A program made the position numbers and the translations under genes. A DNA stretch of 64,000 bases from Chloroflexota bacterium (GTDB lineage Bacteria > Chloroflexota > UBA11872), in NCBI GenBank assembly GCA_022824865.1, contig JAJDZD010000022.1, forward strand, positions 100,115-164,114, written 5' to 3'. Positions 4,278-18,446 of this stretch are shown here, piece by piece (positions within the stretch are counted from its first letter, which is position 1; each line of letters opens with the position of its first letter). Under the pieces are notes generated by a model. It made no database searches. It was given only the letters and a program-made list of their open reading frames with translations, and was not told the DNA's origin.

Positions 4278-5663
4278 CTAGTCGTACCTGTAGCCGTACA
4301 CGCTGGCCCGCGCCGCCGTGACGTGCAGGCGCACCCGGCGGCCGCGCAAGGCCTCCAGCGAATCGCCGGTGTCCCAACAAACCCGCGCCTTGATCGCGTC
4401 GCGTTCAATGGGCACGGCCTCATCGTGGCCGAACCCCTCCAGCGCCCCGCCATGCTCGTTCAGTACCGCCACCCGCACGTCCCCGAACTCCGCGTCCACG
4501 TTCAGCGTCAAGCGGTCGCCGCTCACCTCGGCCGGTTCGGTCACGAACTCGCCGCCGTCCTGCCCCGCCGTCAGCGCCGCCCAGCGGTCGCGCCCAAACT
4601 CCAGGAGGCCAATTTGGCAGCGCGCCGGTCGCATCCGGTAGCGCCGTCCCGCGTGCGCCGTCCCGCGCCCGCCAAACGGCACCAGCATCCGGTCTCCCAC
4701 CACCAGCGGGTCGTTGCTGGATGGAAACACCCACATGTCATCCCACGCCCCCTCGGTGCCCCGGTCCAGCCACGGCGTCCGTTCCAGCCGCTGCCAGTGG
4801 TCCCCGTCGCGGCTCACGACCAGCTCCGTGTGCAGGCGCTCCACGAACCGGTCATAGAACTCCAGGTACCCCAGGTAGCCGTTCCCGGCCGTCATCGGGT
4901 ACATGCTGTAAAACTCGGTATCCAGCGGGTCCGCGTCGTCCGGCCGCATCAGCATCTCCGGCCCGATCCACTCACGCAGGTCCGGGCTGCGCCAGCGCTC
5001 CACGCTGCGGATTCGAGGGATCGGTGGGTCCGCCGCAAAGTCCCTGTCCAGGTCCGCGCGTCGAGACGTCAGCCAGTACTCGCCCCGCCGGTCGTCAAAA
5101 ATGCACTGAAACCGGTCCCCCGTCTCGGTCAGAAACGGCTCGTCATGCCACGACCAATGCACCCCGTCGGAACTCGTCAATACGAAGAACGCGTGCCGCC
5201 GAATGGCCGCCACCCGCGCATAAATCACCATCCGATAGCGTTCCGACTCCGGAGCCTGCGGATCGACGAGCACCTGCGGACTGTCCAGGTAATCCCAGGG
5301 CGCGCTTTCTCGCATCATCCAACAGATGTTGTTCGCGCGGCTGCCCTCCCACTCGAAAAGCCCCAGGTCCGGCTTATCCCAGGTCACGCCGTCGGTTGAC
5401 GTCGCGTAGCAGACCAGCGAGACCAGCGGCTGCGGACGCTCGGCATTCCAGGCCTCGTACCAGAGCTTGAATAGCCCCGTCTCCGGGTCGTAGTGCGCCG
5501 TGCCCCACGTCACCACCGACGTGCCTTCCCACGGCTCGGTCGGCGCCAGCACCGGCGCCATCTGCACCCGCGCCGGCCGGTTCCAGGTCCGGCGCATGTG
5601 CACCACCGTTTGCAGTTCCCACGGGTGACAGAACAGATGCAGCGAAGGGTCGTACGGCATCAT
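4278..5663 (-). CDS. Five-bladed beta-propeller glycosidase-like protein, copy A
   Basis: A 461-residue protein with the repeated blade signature of GH32/GH43/GH68-type propellers: FKLWYEAW with CYATSTDGVTWDKPDLG, VLTSSDGVHWSWHDE, ERWRSPDLREWIG and LVVSRDGDHWQRLE. A small beta-sandwich follows (DRLTLNVDAEFGDVRVAVL), as in GH32 enzymes. No signal peptide is present, so a cytoplasmic role is likely. Candidate catalytic acids are spread through the blades and cannot be fixed by eye. The gene is one half of a tandem duplication with the next gene upstream. ATG-ATG at the start makes the first codon uncertain by one residue. Substrate unknown; many relatives of this type are annotated only as 'glycosyl hydrolase family 32 N-terminal-like'. 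Confidence 0.75.
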   Translation of the reverse strand: MMPYDPSLHLFCHPWELQTVVHMRRTWNRPARVQMAPVLAPTEPWEGTSVVTWGTAHYDPETGLFKLWYEAWNAERPQPLVSLVCYATSTDGVTWDKPDLGLFEWEGSRANNICWMMRESAPWDYLDSPQVLVDPQAPESERYRMVIYARVAAIRRHAFFVLTSSDGVHWSWHDEPFLTETGDRFQCIFDDRRGEYWLTSRRADLDRDFAADPPIPRIRSVERWRSPDLREWIGPEMLMRPDDADPLDTEFYSMYPMTAGNGYLGYLEFYDRFVERLHTELVVSRDGDHWQRLERTPWLDRGTEGAWDDMWVFPSSNDPLVVGDRMLVPFGGRGTAHAGRRYRMRPARCQIGLLEFGRDRWAALTAGQDGGEFVTEPAEVSGDRLTLNVDAEFGDVRVAVLNEHGGALEGFGHDEAVPIERDAIKARVCWDTGDSLEALRGRRVRLHVTAARASVYGYRYD

Positions 5664-5775: not shown

Positions 5776-7158
5776 TTAGCCAAATCTGTATCCGTACACA
5801 CTGGCTCGCGCCACCGTGGCATGGAGCCGCACGCGACGGCCACGTAGCGCGCTCAGGGAATCACCCGCATCCCACCGAACCCGCGCCTCGATTGCGTCGC
5901 GTTCGATCGGCACGGCCGCGTCGTGGCCGTAACCCTCCAGCGTCCCGCCATACGCATCCAGCACCGCCACCCGCACGTCGCCGAACTCCGCGTCCACGTT
6001 CAGGCACAGGTGGTCGCCCGTAACGTCCGCCGGTTCGGTCACGAACTCGCCACCGTCCTGCCCGGCCGTCAGCGCCGCCCAGCGATCGCGCTGGAACTCC
6101 AACAGCCCAATCCGGCACCGCGCCGGCTGCATCCGGTATCGCCGGCCGCCGTGCGCCGTGCCACGGCCGCAAAACGGCACCAGCATCCGGTCCTCAACTA
6201 CCAGCGGGTCGTTGCTGGCCGGAAATATCCACATGTCATCCCAGGCGCCCTCGGTCCCGCGGTCCAGCCACGGCGTCCGCTCCAGTCGCTGCCAGTGGTC
6301 CCCGTCGCGGCTAACCACCAACTCCGTATGCAGACGCTCCACGAACCGGTCGTAGAACTCCAGGTAGCCCAGGTACCCGTTCCCGGCCGTCATCGGATAC
6401 ATGCTGTAGAACTCGGTGTCCGGCAGATCCGCGTCGTCCGGCCGCATCAGCATCTCCGGCCCGATCCACTCACGCAGGTCCGGGCTGCGCCAGCGCTCCA
6501 CGCTGCGAATTCGCGGGACGGGCGGGTCCGAATAGAAGTCCCGTTCCCCGTACGCGCGCCTTGACGTGACCCAATACTCGCCCCGCCGGTCATCGTAGAT
6601 GCAGTGAAATCGGTCCCCGGTCTCGGTCAGAAACGGCTCGTCATGCCACGTCCAATGCATCCCGTCCGCACTGGTAAGCGCGAAGAATGCCTGCCGCCGA
6701 ATGGCCTGAACCCGCGCGTAAATGACCATCCGGTAACGCTCCGCCTCCGGCGCGTCCGGATCGACAAACACCCGTGGACTATCCAGGTAGTCCCACGGCG
6801 CGCTCTCACGCCGCATCATCCAGCAGATGTTGTTCGCCCGGCTCCCGTCCCACTCAAACACCCCCAGCTCCGGCTTGTCCCACGTGAGGCCATCGGTCGA
6901 CGTGGCATAGCAGACCGGCGTGTCCAGCGGCTCCGGGCGATCCGGATTCCACGCCTCGTACCAGAGCTTGAAGACCCCCGTCTCCTGGTCGTAGAACGCC
7001 GTACTCCAGGCCACCGACGTACCCTCCCACGGCTCGGTCGGCGCCAGCACCGGGTCCATCTGCACCCGCGCCGGACGGTTCCAGGTCCGGCGCATGTGCA
7101 CCACCGTCTGCAGCTCCCAGGGATGACAAAACAGATGCAGCGAAGGGTCGTACGGCAT
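5776..7158 (-). CDS. Five-bladed beta-propeller glycosidase-like protein, copy B
   Basis: A 460-residue paralogue of the gene immediately downstream, colinear throughout and identical at most positions. It has the same blade motifs (FKLWYEAW, CYATSTDGLTWDKPELG, ERWRSPDLREWIG, LVVSRDGDHWQRLE) and the same C-terminal sandwich. Differences cluster on surface-like segments (for example RAYGERDFYSD against RADLDRDFAAD) and at a residue pair in the active-site half (FCGRGTAH against FGGRGTAH). Its 5' flank is also shared with copy A. Divergence without stops or frameshifts implies that both copies are under selection. Function as for copy A. Confidence 0.75.
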   Translation of the reverse strand: MPYDPSLHLFCHPWELQTVVHMRRTWNRPARVQMDPVLAPTEPWEGTSVAWSTAFYDQETGVFKLWYEAWNPDRPEPLDTPVCYATSTDGLTWDKPELGVFEWDGSRANNICWMMRRESAPWDYLDSPRVFVDPDAPEAERYRMVIYARVQAIRRQAFFALTSADGMHWTWHDEPFLTETGDRFHCIYDDRRGEYWVTSRRAYGERDFYSDPPVPRIRSVERWRSPDLREWIGPEMLMRPDDADLPDTEFYSMYPMTAGNGYLGYLEFYDRFVERLHTELVVSRDGDHWQRLERTPWLDRGTEGAWDDMWIFPASNDPLVVEDRMLVPFCGRGTAHGGRRYRMQPARCRIGLLEFQRDRWAALTAGQDGGEFVTEPADVTGDHLCLNVDAEFGDVRVAVLDAYGGTLEGYGHDAAVPIERDAIEARVRWDAGDSLSALRGRRVRLHATVARASVYGYRFG

Positions 7159-9241: not shown

Positions 9242-10714
9242 CTAGAGGCCGCTCAACTCCACCGTGCTGACCGTTTGGGTAGCCAGCTCCACCCGCCGCA
9301 CCACGTGATTATTCGTATCCGCCACAAACAACACCCCGTCAACCAGCGAAACCCCGCCCGGCTCATGAAACCGCGCCTCGGCCAGCCCGCCGTCCGCGTC
9401 CCCGTGCTCGGTATCCCCGGCAAACGACGTAATCAGCCGCTGGACCGGATCCACCACCTTGATCTTGTTGTTGTACGTATCGGCAATGAACACCCCTTCC
9501 GCCCCCGCCGCCACCCCCAGCGGATGCTGTAGTCGGATCGACGTGCCCTGCCCGTCCACGTCCCCGAAGTCGAACAGTCCCACCCCTGCAATCGTCCGCG
9601 CGTCGCCCCGGCCGTCCAGCGGCAGCGTCCGAATCGCGCTCGTCTCGCTATCCGCCACCAGCAGCCGTTCCGCGTGCACCGCCAGCCCGCTCGGCTGCGC
9701 CAGCTGCGCCGTGTCCAGCGGCCCGTCCTGCAGATTCTCGATCCCCGACCCCGCATACGGCCCGATTTCTCCGTCCGCCGGATCCATCACCCAGACCTGG
9801 TGCATCCCCGCCATCGCAATGAACAGCCGCCCGTCGTGCCAGGCCAGGTCCCACGGCGAGGCCAGTTCGGCCGTCAGTGCCGGATGCGATCCCGGTGCCG
9901 GATATCCCCGCGCCCCCGTTCCCGCCACCGTCGAAACCTCGCCCGACCCCAGCTCGATCCGCCGAATCCGGTGATTCTCCGTATCCGCCACGTACAGCTC
10001 GTCGCCAACCACGGCCAGCCCCTGCGGATACGTGAATCGCGCTTCCGAGGCCGCCCCGTCCCGATGCCCTTCCTCCGACGACCCGAACACCCGCCGCACT
10101 TCGCCGCTGTGGCTCGTTTCCACGATCCGGTGATGACCCGAGTCCGCGATGTACAGCGCGTCCTCGGTGGCCAGCACCTTCCCCGGAAACGCCAGTCCCG
10201 TATCCGAATCCGGCGCCTGCTCCATCACGTCCAGCGGCGCGTCCGTCACCGTGCCGTTCGGCCGGTGCTCATTCAGGATTCGGGTGACCGCCCGGTCCAG
10301 CGCCTCGAACGGCGCCTCGCCCGAATGAAACCCGATCACGTGCCCCAGCGGGTCCACGAACACCATCGTCGGCCACGCCCGCACCCCGTACGTCTGCCAG
10401 ATCTGGAAATCCCGGTCGTTCACCACCGGGTGCTCCAGCCGGTGGCGCCGCGCCGCGTAGCGCACGTTGAAGGTCTCGCGCTCCGCCGGGAACTTGGGCG
10501 TATGCACGCCCACCACCGCCAGCGCCGGACCGTGCTTTTCTTCGAGTTTCCGCAACTGCGGAAATAGCTGCAGGCAGTTAATTCAGCAGAACGTCCAGAA
10601 GTCCAGGATCACCAGCCGGCCCTGCAGGTCCGCCATGCGAACCGGCCGCCGCGTATTGGCCCACTCCAACCCCTCCGGAAACTCCGGCGCCGGAATCGGC
10701 GTCTGCGTCGCCAT
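9242..10714 (-). CDS. Thioredoxin-NHL repeat protein, predicted selenoprotein (NHLRC2-like), Sec at codon 44
   Basis: Read from ATG 10714 (GGAGG nine bases upstream) the frame continues for 490 residues if the TGA at 10583-10585 (codon 44) is read as selenocysteine. Residues 1-43 have the family start (LEWANTRRPVRMADLQGRLV, then ILDFWTFC). After the TGA come INC and LQLFPQLRKLEEKHG. Known NHLRC2-type proteins have a CCINC active site; here it is C-U-I-N-C, so Sec replaces the first Cys of the catalytic CxxC pair (Sec44, Cys47). The rest of the thioredoxin fold follows (PTMVFVDPLGHVIGF). About five NHL repeats come next (ALYIADSGHHRIV, LYVADTENHRIRRI, VFIADTYNNKIKVV, LFVADTNNHVVRRV). Read conventionally, the frame downstream would have to start at TTG 10555 and would lack the active site. 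A sequencing error or pseudogene is the alternative. Confidence 0.8.
10547..10564 (-). promoter_or_regulatory. Candidate bacterial SECIS hairpin
   Basis: On the minus strand, TTTCCGC and GCGGAAA form a perfect seven-pair stem closed by the tetraloop AGTT. The loop begins 26 bases after the UGA, and its G is the second loop base. Bacterial SECIS elements are short stem-loops just downstream of the UGA with a G near the start of the apical loop, so both distance and form fit. The hairpin is inside the coding region and is also partly dictated by codons for FPQLRK. Confidence 0.6.
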
Positions 10715-10954
10715 CCACCCACCCTCCAGTCATCCCTCATTCAGTCTCCCACGCCTCAACCTCCCGTTCGTGGTGAGCCGGGCCAGAGTCTTCGGCGGCC
10801 CGTGTCGAACCACCCCGTCCTTTCTTGCGTAGCGGCCGGTTTGTAACCGGCCTCTTCCGGTCGCATCCCCCAGACCAACCGCCATTCGTGGTGAGCCCGG
10901 CCTGATCCTGCCGACCTTCCGGACTCCGCGGCCCCAGAGATCCTCGGCACCCGC
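10715..10954. repeat. Intergenic cluster of dispersed repeats
   Basis: No gene is seen. Three short repeat units follow each other: 10765-10816 (GTTCGTGGTGAGCCGGGCC then GTGTCGAACCAC), 10828-10861 (an inverted-repeat core GGCCGGTTTGTAACCGGCC, then TCTTCCGGTCGC) and 10884-10912 (a shorter copy of the first). The same units recur at 22.68-22.79 kb in a similar spacer, so they are mobile or copy-spreading extragenic elements. Confidence 0.75.
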
Positions 10955-15818: not shown

Positions 15819-16283
15819 CTAGCTTTCGTCCTCCGCCAGCAGGTCCAGCAGCCCATCGGGATGCAGGGGACCCTCAAGCGGCTGGCTGATGTCAATCCAC
15901 CGGGCCTCGAACCGCTCGCCGTCCCCCTCGACTCCCTCAATCGTTTCGCTGTCGTATCGCGAGCGGTCCACAAACTCCGCCTCGAACAGCAGCACGATCC
16001 AATGCGCCGGCTGCCCCTCCCGCTCGAAGATGTTCTCGACGGTCCCCATATGACGAACGTTCTCGATCTCCTCGCCTATCTCCTCCCGAATCTCCCGCCG
16101 GACAGCATCGGCCCCGCGCTCTCCGAAGTGAATGGCCCCGCCCAACGGTCGGTAAAACCGATTGCCCTTCGCCGTCCGGTACTCACGCACCAAAAGCCGC
16201 GATCCATTCCGAATCACCGCCAGCGCCACCGGACGGATGCCGGCATAGCCCGGCGAGCGCTGAGTCGTCACCGGCCCGGCCAC
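15819..16283 (-). CDS. Nudix hydrolase, tandem copy 1
   Basis: A 154-residue Nudix protein. The Nudix box is complete: GGAIHFGERGADAVRREIRE followed by EIGEEI, matching G-x5-E-x7-R-E-U-x-E-E-x-G-U. Nudix enzymes hydrolyse nucleoside diphosphates linked to another group. The substrate loop around TVENIFEREG and the aromatic-poor C-terminus do not point to a specific substrate. It shares its whole layout with the two Nudix genes upstream, including an ENIF(Y) strand, a VEGDG(E) loop before the last strand and a PL.P.GLL.LL end. Confidence 0.85.
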   Translation of the reverse strand: MAGPVTTQRSPGYAGIRPVALAVIRNGSRLLVREYRTAKGNRFYRPLGGAIHFGERGADAVRREIREEIGEEIENVRHMGTVENIFEREGQPAHWIVLLFEAEFVDRSRYDSETIEGVEGDGERFEARWIDISQPLEGPLHPDGLLDLLAEDES

Positions 16284-16327
16284 TTCGCGCCATTAGCGCG
16301 CCCGGCGCAGACGCTCGCAGCAGTCAC

Positions 16328-16795
16328 CTAACCCGCACTGCCCCGGAGCAACTCCAACAGCCCCAACGGATACAACGGCCGGTCCAACGGCTCCGACACA
16401 TCAATCCAAACCGCCTCGATCCGCGTGCCGCCGCCCTCCGTGCCCACAATTCGCTCGGCCTCGTAGTAGGAGTCGTCTGCAAACCGCGCCTCGAACACGA
16501 ACACGACCTCATGCCCCGGCCGACCGTGATAGTCGAAGATGTTCTCCAGCGTCCCCAGCTGCCGCACGTCCCTGATTTCGGCCTCGAACTCTTCCCACAT
16601 CTCCCGCCGCACCGCCTCAATGGCCCGTTCGCCAAACTCAACGCCCCCGCCCGGCGGACGATAAAACCAGTCGCGCCGGTCCCACGCCGCGTTGTCCTCC
16701 ACCAGGATGCGCGGCCCGTCCCGAAACACCGCCAGCGCCAGCGGTCTGATCCCCGCCCATGTCGGCAGCAGTCCGGACCTCACCAATTCGTCCAC
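16328..16795 (-). CDS. Nudix hydrolase, tandem copy 2
   Basis: A 155-residue paralogue of its two neighbours. The Nudix box is GGGVEFGERAIEAVRREMWE followed by EFEAEI, in which the usual Gly near the end is replaced (EE-F-E where EE-x-G is expected), a possible change in metal geometry. The shared start (AGIRPLALAVFRDGPRILVE) and end (PLYPLGLLELL) align directly with copies 1 and 3. It lies 45 bases upstream of copy 1 and 13 downstream of copy 3, so the three are probably co-transcribed. Confidence 0.8.
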   Translation of the reverse strand: MDELVRSGLLPTWAGIRPLALAVFRDGPRILVEDNAAWDRRDWFYRPPGGGVEFGERAIEAVRREMWEEFEAEIRDVRQLGTLENIFDYHGRPGHEVVFVFEARFADDSYYEAERIVGTEGGGTRIEAVWIDVSEPLDRPLYPLGLLELLRGSAG

Positions 16796-16807
16796 GCCGA
16801 ACGCTGA

Positions 16808-17299
16808 TCAGTCTTCAGCGGCGACCGCAGCCAGCCGCGCCCGCAACAACTCCAGCAACCCGGTCGGATACAACGGCGCGTCCAGGGGCTCCGACATGTC
16901 CAGCCACACGGCCTCGATCCGATCCCCGTCGCCCTCCACCCCCACCAGCCGCTCCGCCGCCTCGAGCGATGAATCCGCGAACCTCGCCTCGAACATGAAC
17001 ACGATCTCGTGCCAGTCCTTGTCGTCCTTCGAGTAGATGTTCTCCAGCACCGCAAGCAGCCGAACGTCCGTAATGTCCGCGCCCAACTCTTCCCGGATCT
17101 CACGCACCGCCGCGTCCTCGGCCAGTTCGCCATGGTCCACCGCGCCGCCCAGCGGCCGGTAGGCCGGCGGTCCGCCGGTTGCCGCATAGTCCTGCACCAG
17201 CACGCGCGACCCGGCGCGTATCGCGGCCAGCGCCTGCGGCCGAATCCACGCCCACGACGGCAGCGACCCCTCAGGCAACTGCCTGGCGGCCCGAGTCAC
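16808..17299 (-). CDS. Nudix hydrolase, tandem copy 3
   Basis: A 163-residue protein from GTG 17299, chosen because homology to copies 1 and 2 begins just inside it (SWAWIRPQALAAIRAGSRVL) and a GGGGTGG sequence precedes it. The longer reading upstream gives an Arg-rich, protein-unlike extension. The Nudix box GGAVDHGELAEDAAVREIRE with ELGADI is complete. As the first gene of the trio it is the likely best-expressed copy. Confidence 0.8.
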   Translation of the reverse strand: MTRAARQLPEGSLPSWAWIRPQALAAIRAGSRVLVQDYAATGGPPAYRPLGGAVDHGELAEDAAVREIREELGADITDVRLLAVLENIYSKDDKDWHEIVFMFEARFADSSLEAAERLVGVEGDGDRIEAVWLDMSEPLDAPLYPTGLLELLRARLAAVAAED

Positions 17300-17384
17300 C
17301 GGACCACCCCGTCTAGCCCAGGCGGGCTCGTCCCGTGTGGTCAACGCAATCGTCCCGCTTGGACCGTAGGCCTGGAGGCCGGCC

Positions 17385-18446
17385 CTACGGCGCGCCCTCC
17401 GGCGCCGCCGGCGGACCATCCTTCAGATAGTCCAGGTCCAGCGCGCTCCGCACCTGCTCCATCAGCGGCTCCGCCCGGCGCTTCGTCTCCGCCGTCCCGG
17501 CCGCCAGCACGTCCCGCACGTCGTCCGGCCGCGCCTCCCAGTCCGCCCGCCGCTCCCGGATCGGCCCCAGGAACGCATTCATCGCCGTGAACAGCCGGTC
17601 CTTCACCTCCACGTCCCCGACCTTGCCGACCCGGTACCGCGCCTTCAGGTCGTCCACTTCCTCCGCGTTCGGATTGAACGCGTCGTGATACATGAACACC
17701 GGGTTGCCTTCCACGGTGCCCGGATCGGTCGCCCGCAGCCGCTTCGGATCCGTGAACATGCTCCGCACCTTCGCCCGCAGCGTGTCCTCGGAATCCTTCA
17801 GGAAAATCGCGTTCCCCGCCGACGTCCCCATCTTCCCCTTGCCGTCGATCCCCACCAGCCGCGGCACCTCGCCAACCCGGCCCCTGGGAACCACAAACGT
17901 CTCCCCGAACCGACGGTTGAACCGGATCGCCACATCCCGCGTCATCTCGATGTGTGGCAGCTGGTCCTCCCCCACCGGCACCAGGTGCGCCAGCGGCAGC
18001 AGGATGTTGGAAATCTGCATCACCGGGTAGTTGAAAAACGCCACCGGCACCGACTTGTTGGTCGACTCCAGGTCCGCCAGTTCGGCCTTCAGCGTGGGAT
18101 TCCGCTGCAGGTGTCCCAAACCCAGGAACCAGCTCAGGTGTAGCGTCAACTCCGCGAACTCCGGCACCCCGCTCTCGATCACGAAGTGCGAGATATTCGG
18201 GTCCAGCCCAACCCCCAGCCAGTCCAGCGTCACCTCCCAGAGACCCCAGCGGATCCACGGCAGGTTGTCGGCGTAGTCGGAGACCTGGTAATCGGCCAGC
18301 AGGAAAAACGACTCGTACTCCTCCTGCAGCTCCAGCCACTGCGAAAACGCGCCCGCGTAATGCCCCACGTGCGAGGGCCCGGAAGGCCGCAACCCCGTCA
18401 GGATGCGGCCGCGTTCACCATCCGGCGCGTCGTCCATCTCCGACAT
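17385..18446 (-). CDS. trpS: Tryptophanyl-tRNA synthetase
   Basis: A 353-residue class I aminoacyl-tRNA synthetase. The HIGH-equivalent is PSHVGH (residues 24-29). The Trp-pocket region LLADYQVSDY and the conserved MQISNILLP and VPVGEDQLPHIEMTRD segments are typical of TrpRS. The second signature is KMGTS at residues 205-209 where most enzymes have KMSKS or KMGKS, so the second lysine is absent. The C-terminal anticodon-binding helices end normally. ATG 18446 is preferred over upstream in-frame starts because GAGG lies nine bases before it. It charges tRNA-Trp in the cytoplasm. Confidence 0.9.
   Translation of the reverse strand: MSEMDDAPDGERGRILTGLRPSGPSHVGHYAGAFSQWLELQEEYESFFLLADYQVSDYADNLPWIRWGLWEVTLDWLGVGLDPNISHFVIESGVPEFAELTLHLSWFLGLGHLQRNPTLKAELADLESTNKSVPVAFFNYPVMQISNILLPLAHLVPVGEDQLPHIEMTRDVAIRFNRRFGETFVVPRGRVGEVPRLVGIDGKGKMGTSAGNAIFLKDSEDTLRAKVRSMFTDPKRLRATDPGTVEGNPVFMYHDAFNPNAEEVDDLKARYRVGKVGDVEVKDRLFTAMNAFLGPIRERRADWEARPDDVRDVLAAGTAETKRRAEPLMEQVRSALDLDYLKDGPPAAPEGAP

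Follow-up and report, generated by a model that had tools for sequence, protein, structure and literature searches.

A thioredoxin-NHL gene of a Chloroflexota bacterium very probably encodes a selenoprotein with a UxxC active site

We analyzed a stretch of 64,000 nucleotides from a Chloroflexota bacterium, here called the window, and conclude from sequence comparisons that a gene on its minus strand, coding for a thioredoxin-like domain followed by an NHL β-propeller, very probably gives rise to a selenoprotein. In the explanation we favor, the UGA at codon 44 would be decoded as selenocysteine (Sec) by means of a downstream hairpin, Sec44 and Cys47 would form a UxxC redox pair, and the propeller would dock the substrate; we hold this explanation as a whole with high confidence. 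We read the gene in this way because the TGA is conserved, Sec and Cys interchange at this codon, the hairpin covaries, the genome carries the Sec genes, and the predicted fold matches those of SOQ1 and human NHLRC2. The Sec genes, the interchange and the SECIS-type hairpin also bear out the original prediction of a thioredoxin-NHL selenoprotein with a UxxC motif.

The reading frame and the predicted protein

The frame begins at ATG 10714, preceded by a likely ribosome-binding site, and ends with a TAG at 9242 (Table 1). As had been claimed, the TGA at codon 44 (10585-10583) is its only interruption. A plain ORF finder places the gene start at TTG 10555 and returns a product of 437 amino acids from which the active site is lost, just as was anticipated for standard gene callers. 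A comparison with 11 copies from the same genus over the 43 codons 5′ of the TGA yields 34 synonymous codon differences and 12 non-synonymous ones, with most of the changes at third positions; we therefore consider this stretch to be translated in the thioredoxin-NHL frame.

Table 1. Features of the thioredoxin-NHL gene, in window positions
Feature	Position	Strand	Basis or remark
Putative thioredoxin-NHL selenoprotein gene	9242..10714	-	490 residues with TGA as Sec; Pfam NHL, Thioredoxin_8, AhpC-TSA
Likely ribosome-binding site GGAGGG	10722..10727	-	7 bases 5′ of ATG; read from sequence
Thioredoxin-like domain, residues 1-153	10256..10714	-	Pfam, AlphaFold2 model, Foldseek
TGA codon 44, Sec by our reading; pairs with Cys47 as UxxC; corresponds to Cys-90 of human NHLRC2	10583..10585	-	
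SECIS-type hairpin UUUCCGC-AGUU-GCGGAAA	10547..10564	-	7 bp; loop starts 25 nt after TGA
TTG	10553..10555	-	start in mechanical ORF call; codon 54 (Leu) when the whole frame is read; overlaps hairpin loop
Six-bladed NHL β-propeller, residues about 173-487	9254..10198	-	model strands, Pfam NHL, Foldseek to 6g7w

Two other groups of genes on the same strand of the window caught our attention. Adjacent ORFs at 4278-5663 and 5776-7158 encode very similar paralogues of about 460 amino acids, both with MPYDPSLHLFCHPWELQ near the start, and likely stem from a recent tandem duplication. Three tandem ORFs of 154-203 amino acids at 15819-17419 contain NUDIX-like motifs, as judged by eye. For NHLRC2-type genes, excerpts of PMC6107167 report no conserved gene neighbors in 7 genomes.

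The closest sequences of known structure are SOQ1 (E 9e-106) and NHLRC2 (3e-104). An AlphaFold2 model, calculated from a 15-row alignment with U entered as C, has a mean pLDDT of 93.8 and predicts a thioredoxin fold, in which residue 44 lies immediately before the helix formed by residues 45-64, and a propeller of 24 strands in six groups of four. With both domains covered, Foldseek gave TM-scores (query) of 0.95 to SOQ1 (7djk) and 0.94 to NHLRC2 (6gc1). The predicted model thus has the NHLRC2/SOQ1 arrangement of a thioredoxin-like domain followed by a six-bladed NHL propeller, and sequence and predicted fold together uphold the NHLRC2 likeness proposed at the outset. The CC(I/V)NC motif of this family is present as well, reading C-U-I-N-C in the window protein with the putative Sec in place of the second Cys of CCINC in the PDB relatives. 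This cysteine is Cys-90 of the human protein in the numbering used in excerpts of PMC6107167. The alignment hence places codon 44 on the first Cys of CINC, in line with the earlier assignment of the TGA to the first Cys of the catalytic pair.

Codon 44 in related loci and the downstream hairpin

We examined the state of codon 44 in several sets of genomes. Within the class, 25 of 41 genomes have a match at 1e-40, and all 24 matches that cover the thioredoxin part carry TGA at this codon; a second class match without the thioredoxin part (G038) was left out. In a sample of 400 genomes of the phylum, 81 match at 1e-60. The three that lack the thioredoxin part (G228, G247 and G397) were omitted, and the other 78 loci carry TGA (57), TGC (15) or TGT (6). 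A second collection was obtained by scanning named genomes with a query confined to the part behind the TGA, which picks up Sec and Cys forms alike. Among the best 80 of its 562 confirmed candidates, 30 have TGA, 49 have Cys, and one is incomplete. After leaving out L129, which starts at a contig end, and counting once the 7 loci common to both collections, the phylum sample and the best 80 of 562 named candidates amount to 150 distinct loci, 81 with TGA and 69 with Cys. The rows are related, so these counts overstate independence, and many of them are MAGs in which misplaced contigs are possible.

Sec forms from records whose titles name neither Chloroflexota nor one of its groups are found among the best 80 of 562 in NC10 (L128), Rokuibacteriota (L155), Planctomycetota (L183) and an unassigned bacterium (L157); a further such record, bacterium HR28 (L142), is the same as a locus of the phylum sample. 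Cyanobacteria, Acidobacteriota and Brocadiaceae are among the groups represented by Cys forms in the best 80 of 562. In a tree of the 150 distinct proteins, calculated with the trait columns removed, TGA and TGC/TGT interchange about 11 times, at least five of these state changes being forced by starred branches, compared with a mean of 50 after shuffling. This tree comes from a quick search with SH-aLRT support only, leaves 42 of 147 inner branches open, and gives no readable direction of the changes. The interchange of Cys and Sec looked for at this codon is therefore present, and two marks of bacterial selenoproteins are found: an in-frame UGA kept at one codon and Cys homologues that align Cys to it. 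Residue 47 is Cys in all 150 loci, and residue 43 is variable: 7 of 81 Sec loci have A or G at this position, and 19 of 69 Cys loci have G. We therefore take Sec44 and Cys47 to be the redox pair.

Excerpts of PMC13188914 give rules for bacterial SECIS elements: a loop of 3-9 nt that has a G at one of its first two positions, a stem of 4-16 bp, a distance of 16-37 nt after the UGA, and an MFE of at most -7.5 kcal/mol. We ran them in our own implementation, which accepts uninterrupted stems only and takes the energy of the hairpin alone. The window hairpin satisfies these rules with its loop AGUU, 7 bp, a distance of 25 nt and -8.7 kcal/mol as an isolated hairpin. Across the 150 loci (phylum sample plus best 80 of 562), the same is true for 73 of 81 Sec loci and 2 of 69 Cys loci; in shuffled sequences, the numbers are 33/810 (about 4%) for Sec and 8/690 (about 1%) for Cys. 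A Fisher test on the hairpin counts takes no account of relatedness. Seven of the 8 Sec loci that fail the strict rules retain CAGUUG, and the remaining one, L157, has no hairpin.

The stem also covaries. In 51 distinct Sec rows, the covariation score is 0.321 versus 0.162 in shuffles (0/500), and 28 cells are changed on both sides of the stem versus 8.1. A weaker measure, the number of pairs with two-sided change, gives 4 versus 2.8, a value of 4 being reached in 57 of 500 shuffles. Pairing amounts to 93.8% in these rows and drops to 70.0% or less when the partners are slid. The same columns in 21 Cys rows pair to 44.2%, with no excess of covariation. An RNAalifold consensus comprises 4 bp only. 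The SECIS-type hairpin is thus present behind the TGA, as the original prediction led us to check, though the 56-nt stretch of the window folded alone prefers a different pairing: its MFE structure is a competing hairpin (-10.5 kcal/mol), while the SECIS hairpin is the centroid (-9.3). This stretch is not more stable than its shuffles (z -0.01), and single-sequence folding is not diagnostic here.

Two Sec forms from outside the Chloroflexota depart from the AGUU-type hairpin that most Sec loci share, the loop being UGGAC in L128 (NC10) and GGUC in L183 (Planctomycetota), which suggests that Sec was gained separately in these two. The unassigned L157 combines TGA at codon 44 and a selA gene in its genome with the absence of a hairpin by the SECIS rules; its SECIS may be atypical, or else the codon is broken or misread.

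Because it lies inside the coding sequence, the hairpin could also constrain the protein. For Leu54, 78 of 81 Sec loci use TTG, compared with 11 of 66 Cys loci that encode Leu at this place, and TTG makes up 9.4% of the Leu codons further down the Sec genes. Of the 81 Sec forms, 64 have the residues PQLR; among the 69 Cys forms, the most frequent sequence is PDLK, with 33. The hairpin may have fixed codons and residues alike, and the gene may thus offer a case of an RNA element dictating amino acids. Alternatively, the residues behind the active site could derive from common ancestry and not from the hairpin: AQLR occurs in six Cys forms, and the tree places the Cys loci of family f21, of which several carry AQLR, among Sec forms.

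The TTG codon is also central to an alternative for the gene as a whole, a selenium switch, in which the full-length enzyme would be made with selenium and an NHL-only product with a role of its own, starting near TTG 10555, without it. Such a switch is compatible with the selenoprotein reading. It would be served by the 437-amino-acid frame opened by this TTG and by the retention of TTG at this codon in 78 of 81 Sec loci, as well as by the NHL-only matches in G228, G247 and G397, of which that in G228 starts 37 bases from a contig end. The hairpin, however, already accounts for the TTG, and we regard the switch as improbable.

The meaning of UGA in the genome

If the TGA is read as Sec, the genome should contain the required machinery. 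We found selA (512.7 bits), selB (352.2), selD (372.2) and tRNA-Sec (71.2 bits), all above curated cut-offs, and ARAGORN identifies the tRNA as SeC(tca). All four genes whose absence was to speak against the original prediction are therefore present. The genome's own selD (L010, contig C59, minus-strand ORF 1369-2553) is interrupted once, by an in-frame TGA at HGAG-U-ACK; a hairpin with the loop CGUGC (RNAfold) lies downstream, and selD appears as a second selenoprotein gene. The 2026 inventory lists UxxK as the selenophosphate synthetase motif (excerpts of PMC13188914). The selD TGA fits this motif and provides further indication, besides the thioredoxin-NHL gene, that this genome decodes UGA as Sec.

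We also compared the distribution of the machinery with that of the codon. In the phylum sample, 56 of 57 genomes with the Sec form and 19 of 21 with the Cys form carry selA; the only Sec-form genome without it, G029, does have tRNA-Sec. For the named genomes, based on 50 of 79 loci (10 Sec and 40 Cys, two of them in one genome), the numbers are 9 of 10 and 21 of 39, no selA being found in the Sec-form genome of L112. Pooled, 65 of 67 Sec and 40 of 60 Cys genomes carry selA (Fisher p 7e-6), a comparison that may count genomes twice and ignores relatedness. A tRNA-Sec was detected in 21 of 24 Sec-form genomes of the class, in 27 of the remaining 33 with the Sec form and in 19 of 21 with the Cys form; the failure to detect it in 3/24 and 6/33 Sec-form genomes is perhaps due to gaps or a stricter filter. 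These counts indicate that Sec forms go together with the machinery while the machinery does not demand a Sec form, so that it is no discriminator within the phylum.

UGA could instead be decoded as another residue, either through a general change of the code or because an unusual tRNA whose anticodon is UCA inserts Cys. Variants of tRNA-Cys with this anticodon exist, and a UCA tRNA alone would likewise leave the frame open. A first look, in which TGA ended only 1 of 14 genes, had suggested that it is hardly used as a stop; a fuller count did not bear this out, since 18 of the 41 long ORFs of the window that do not overlap terminate in TGA. Together with the presence of RF2 in 13 of 13 genomes of the genus, this led us to reject general recoding. 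The UCA tRNA, moreover, scores as tRNA-Sec and is accompanied by selA, selB and selD, which leaves decoding as another residue very unlikely. A premature stop, in a pseudogene or by base-call error, would suit a frame with a single break, but we see next to no chance for it and reject it for the window, since the TGA recurs at codon 44 in 81 distinct loci (phylum sample plus best 80 of 562) with an open and conserved frame downstream, 73 of these 81 have a hairpin that is absent from 67 of 69 Cys homologues, and the changes 5′ of the TGA are biased to third positions.

Proposed mechanism, significance and relation to known proteins

Based on the selenoprotein reading, we propose that the ribosome would decode UGA 44 as selenocysteine with the help of SelB, tRNA-Sec and the hairpin just downstream. 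By analogy to thioredoxins, Sec44 would act as the nucleophile and Cys47 as the resolving residue. In the model, the UxxC pair is predicted to sit at the start of helix α1 of the thioredoxin-like domain and to face the cleft between this domain and the NHL propeller; the propeller is probably the docking site for the substrate, be it a protein or another molecule. Sec44 could then attack an oxidized group of the substrate and Cys47 resolve the intermediate, whereby a disulfide or other oxidized group would be reduced (or isomerized).

The 2026 prokaryotic inventory comprises 119 selenoprotein families or subfamilies (excerpts of PMC13188914). The term NHL is absent from its main text and from that of the other selenoprotein papers we examined, and the open-licence literature held nothing relevant that pairs NHL or NHLRC2 with selenium; a groundwater study with further candidates, cited in PMC13188914, lies outside this scope. 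NCBIfam has no model that scores over its cut-off for the thioredoxin-NHL protein. As no NHL-type family is found in the inventory, this literature or NCBIfam, the thioredoxin-NHL protein would be a new selenoprotein form within a known protein family. On balance, though with clear reservation, we favor the wider view of an undescribed selenoprotein family across Chloroflexota and scattered other phyla, with repeated interchange of Sec and Cys and a hairpin that fixed the sequence behind the active site, and which points to redox chemistry of NHLRC2/SOQ1 at CINC with human Cys-90 as the nucleophile.

Mammalian NHLRC2 is described as essential and as mutated in FINCA disease, NHLRC2 is reported not to have reduced insulin, its propeller forms a conserved cleft with the CCINC motif, and the modification made by known NHLRC2/SOQ1 members is termed unidentified (excerpts of PMC6107167). 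SOQ1 has a role in plant photoprotection (excerpts of PMC10173003). Although the human protein failed an insulin-reduction assay, Sec at the equivalent of its Cys-90 would argue that the family performs redox chemistry. A bacterial Sec at exactly one of the family's cysteines would be independent evidence of redox catalysis in NHLRC2/SOQ1 and would single out the residue on which mutation or trapping should focus: residue 44 is probably where chemistry takes place in this poorly understood family, and the Sec form could serve as a reactive handle for catching the substrate. In practical terms, mechanical ORF calls lose the active site of thioredoxin-NHL Sec genes.

Several known proteins share parts of these features. 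Bacterial UxxC selenoproteins with a thioredoxin fold (Thioredoxin, Thiol-disulfide isomerase-like cd02966 and Redoxin family PF08534; excerpts of PMC13188914) likewise have Sec first in a CxxC-type pair within a thioredoxin-fold domain. The two generic UxxC entries of the inventory could hide fragments of the thioredoxin-NHL family. The C-terminal domains of DipZ (2hyx, 5cyy) as well as ResA/TlpA share the thioredoxin-like domain, with the motif SCINC in DipZ. In these proteins, however, the match is restricted to the N-terminal third, with only residues 9-154 aligning to DipZ; they lack the NHL propeller and carry Cys instead of Sec. The closest relatives are human NHLRC2 (6gc1) and the lumenal part of Arabidopsis SOQ1 (7djk), which contain the same two domains over the full length at 38-39% identity to the window protein and share with it the CCINC motif and a W-P-T with the cis-proline position, but have Cys at the residue where the window protein would carry Sec.
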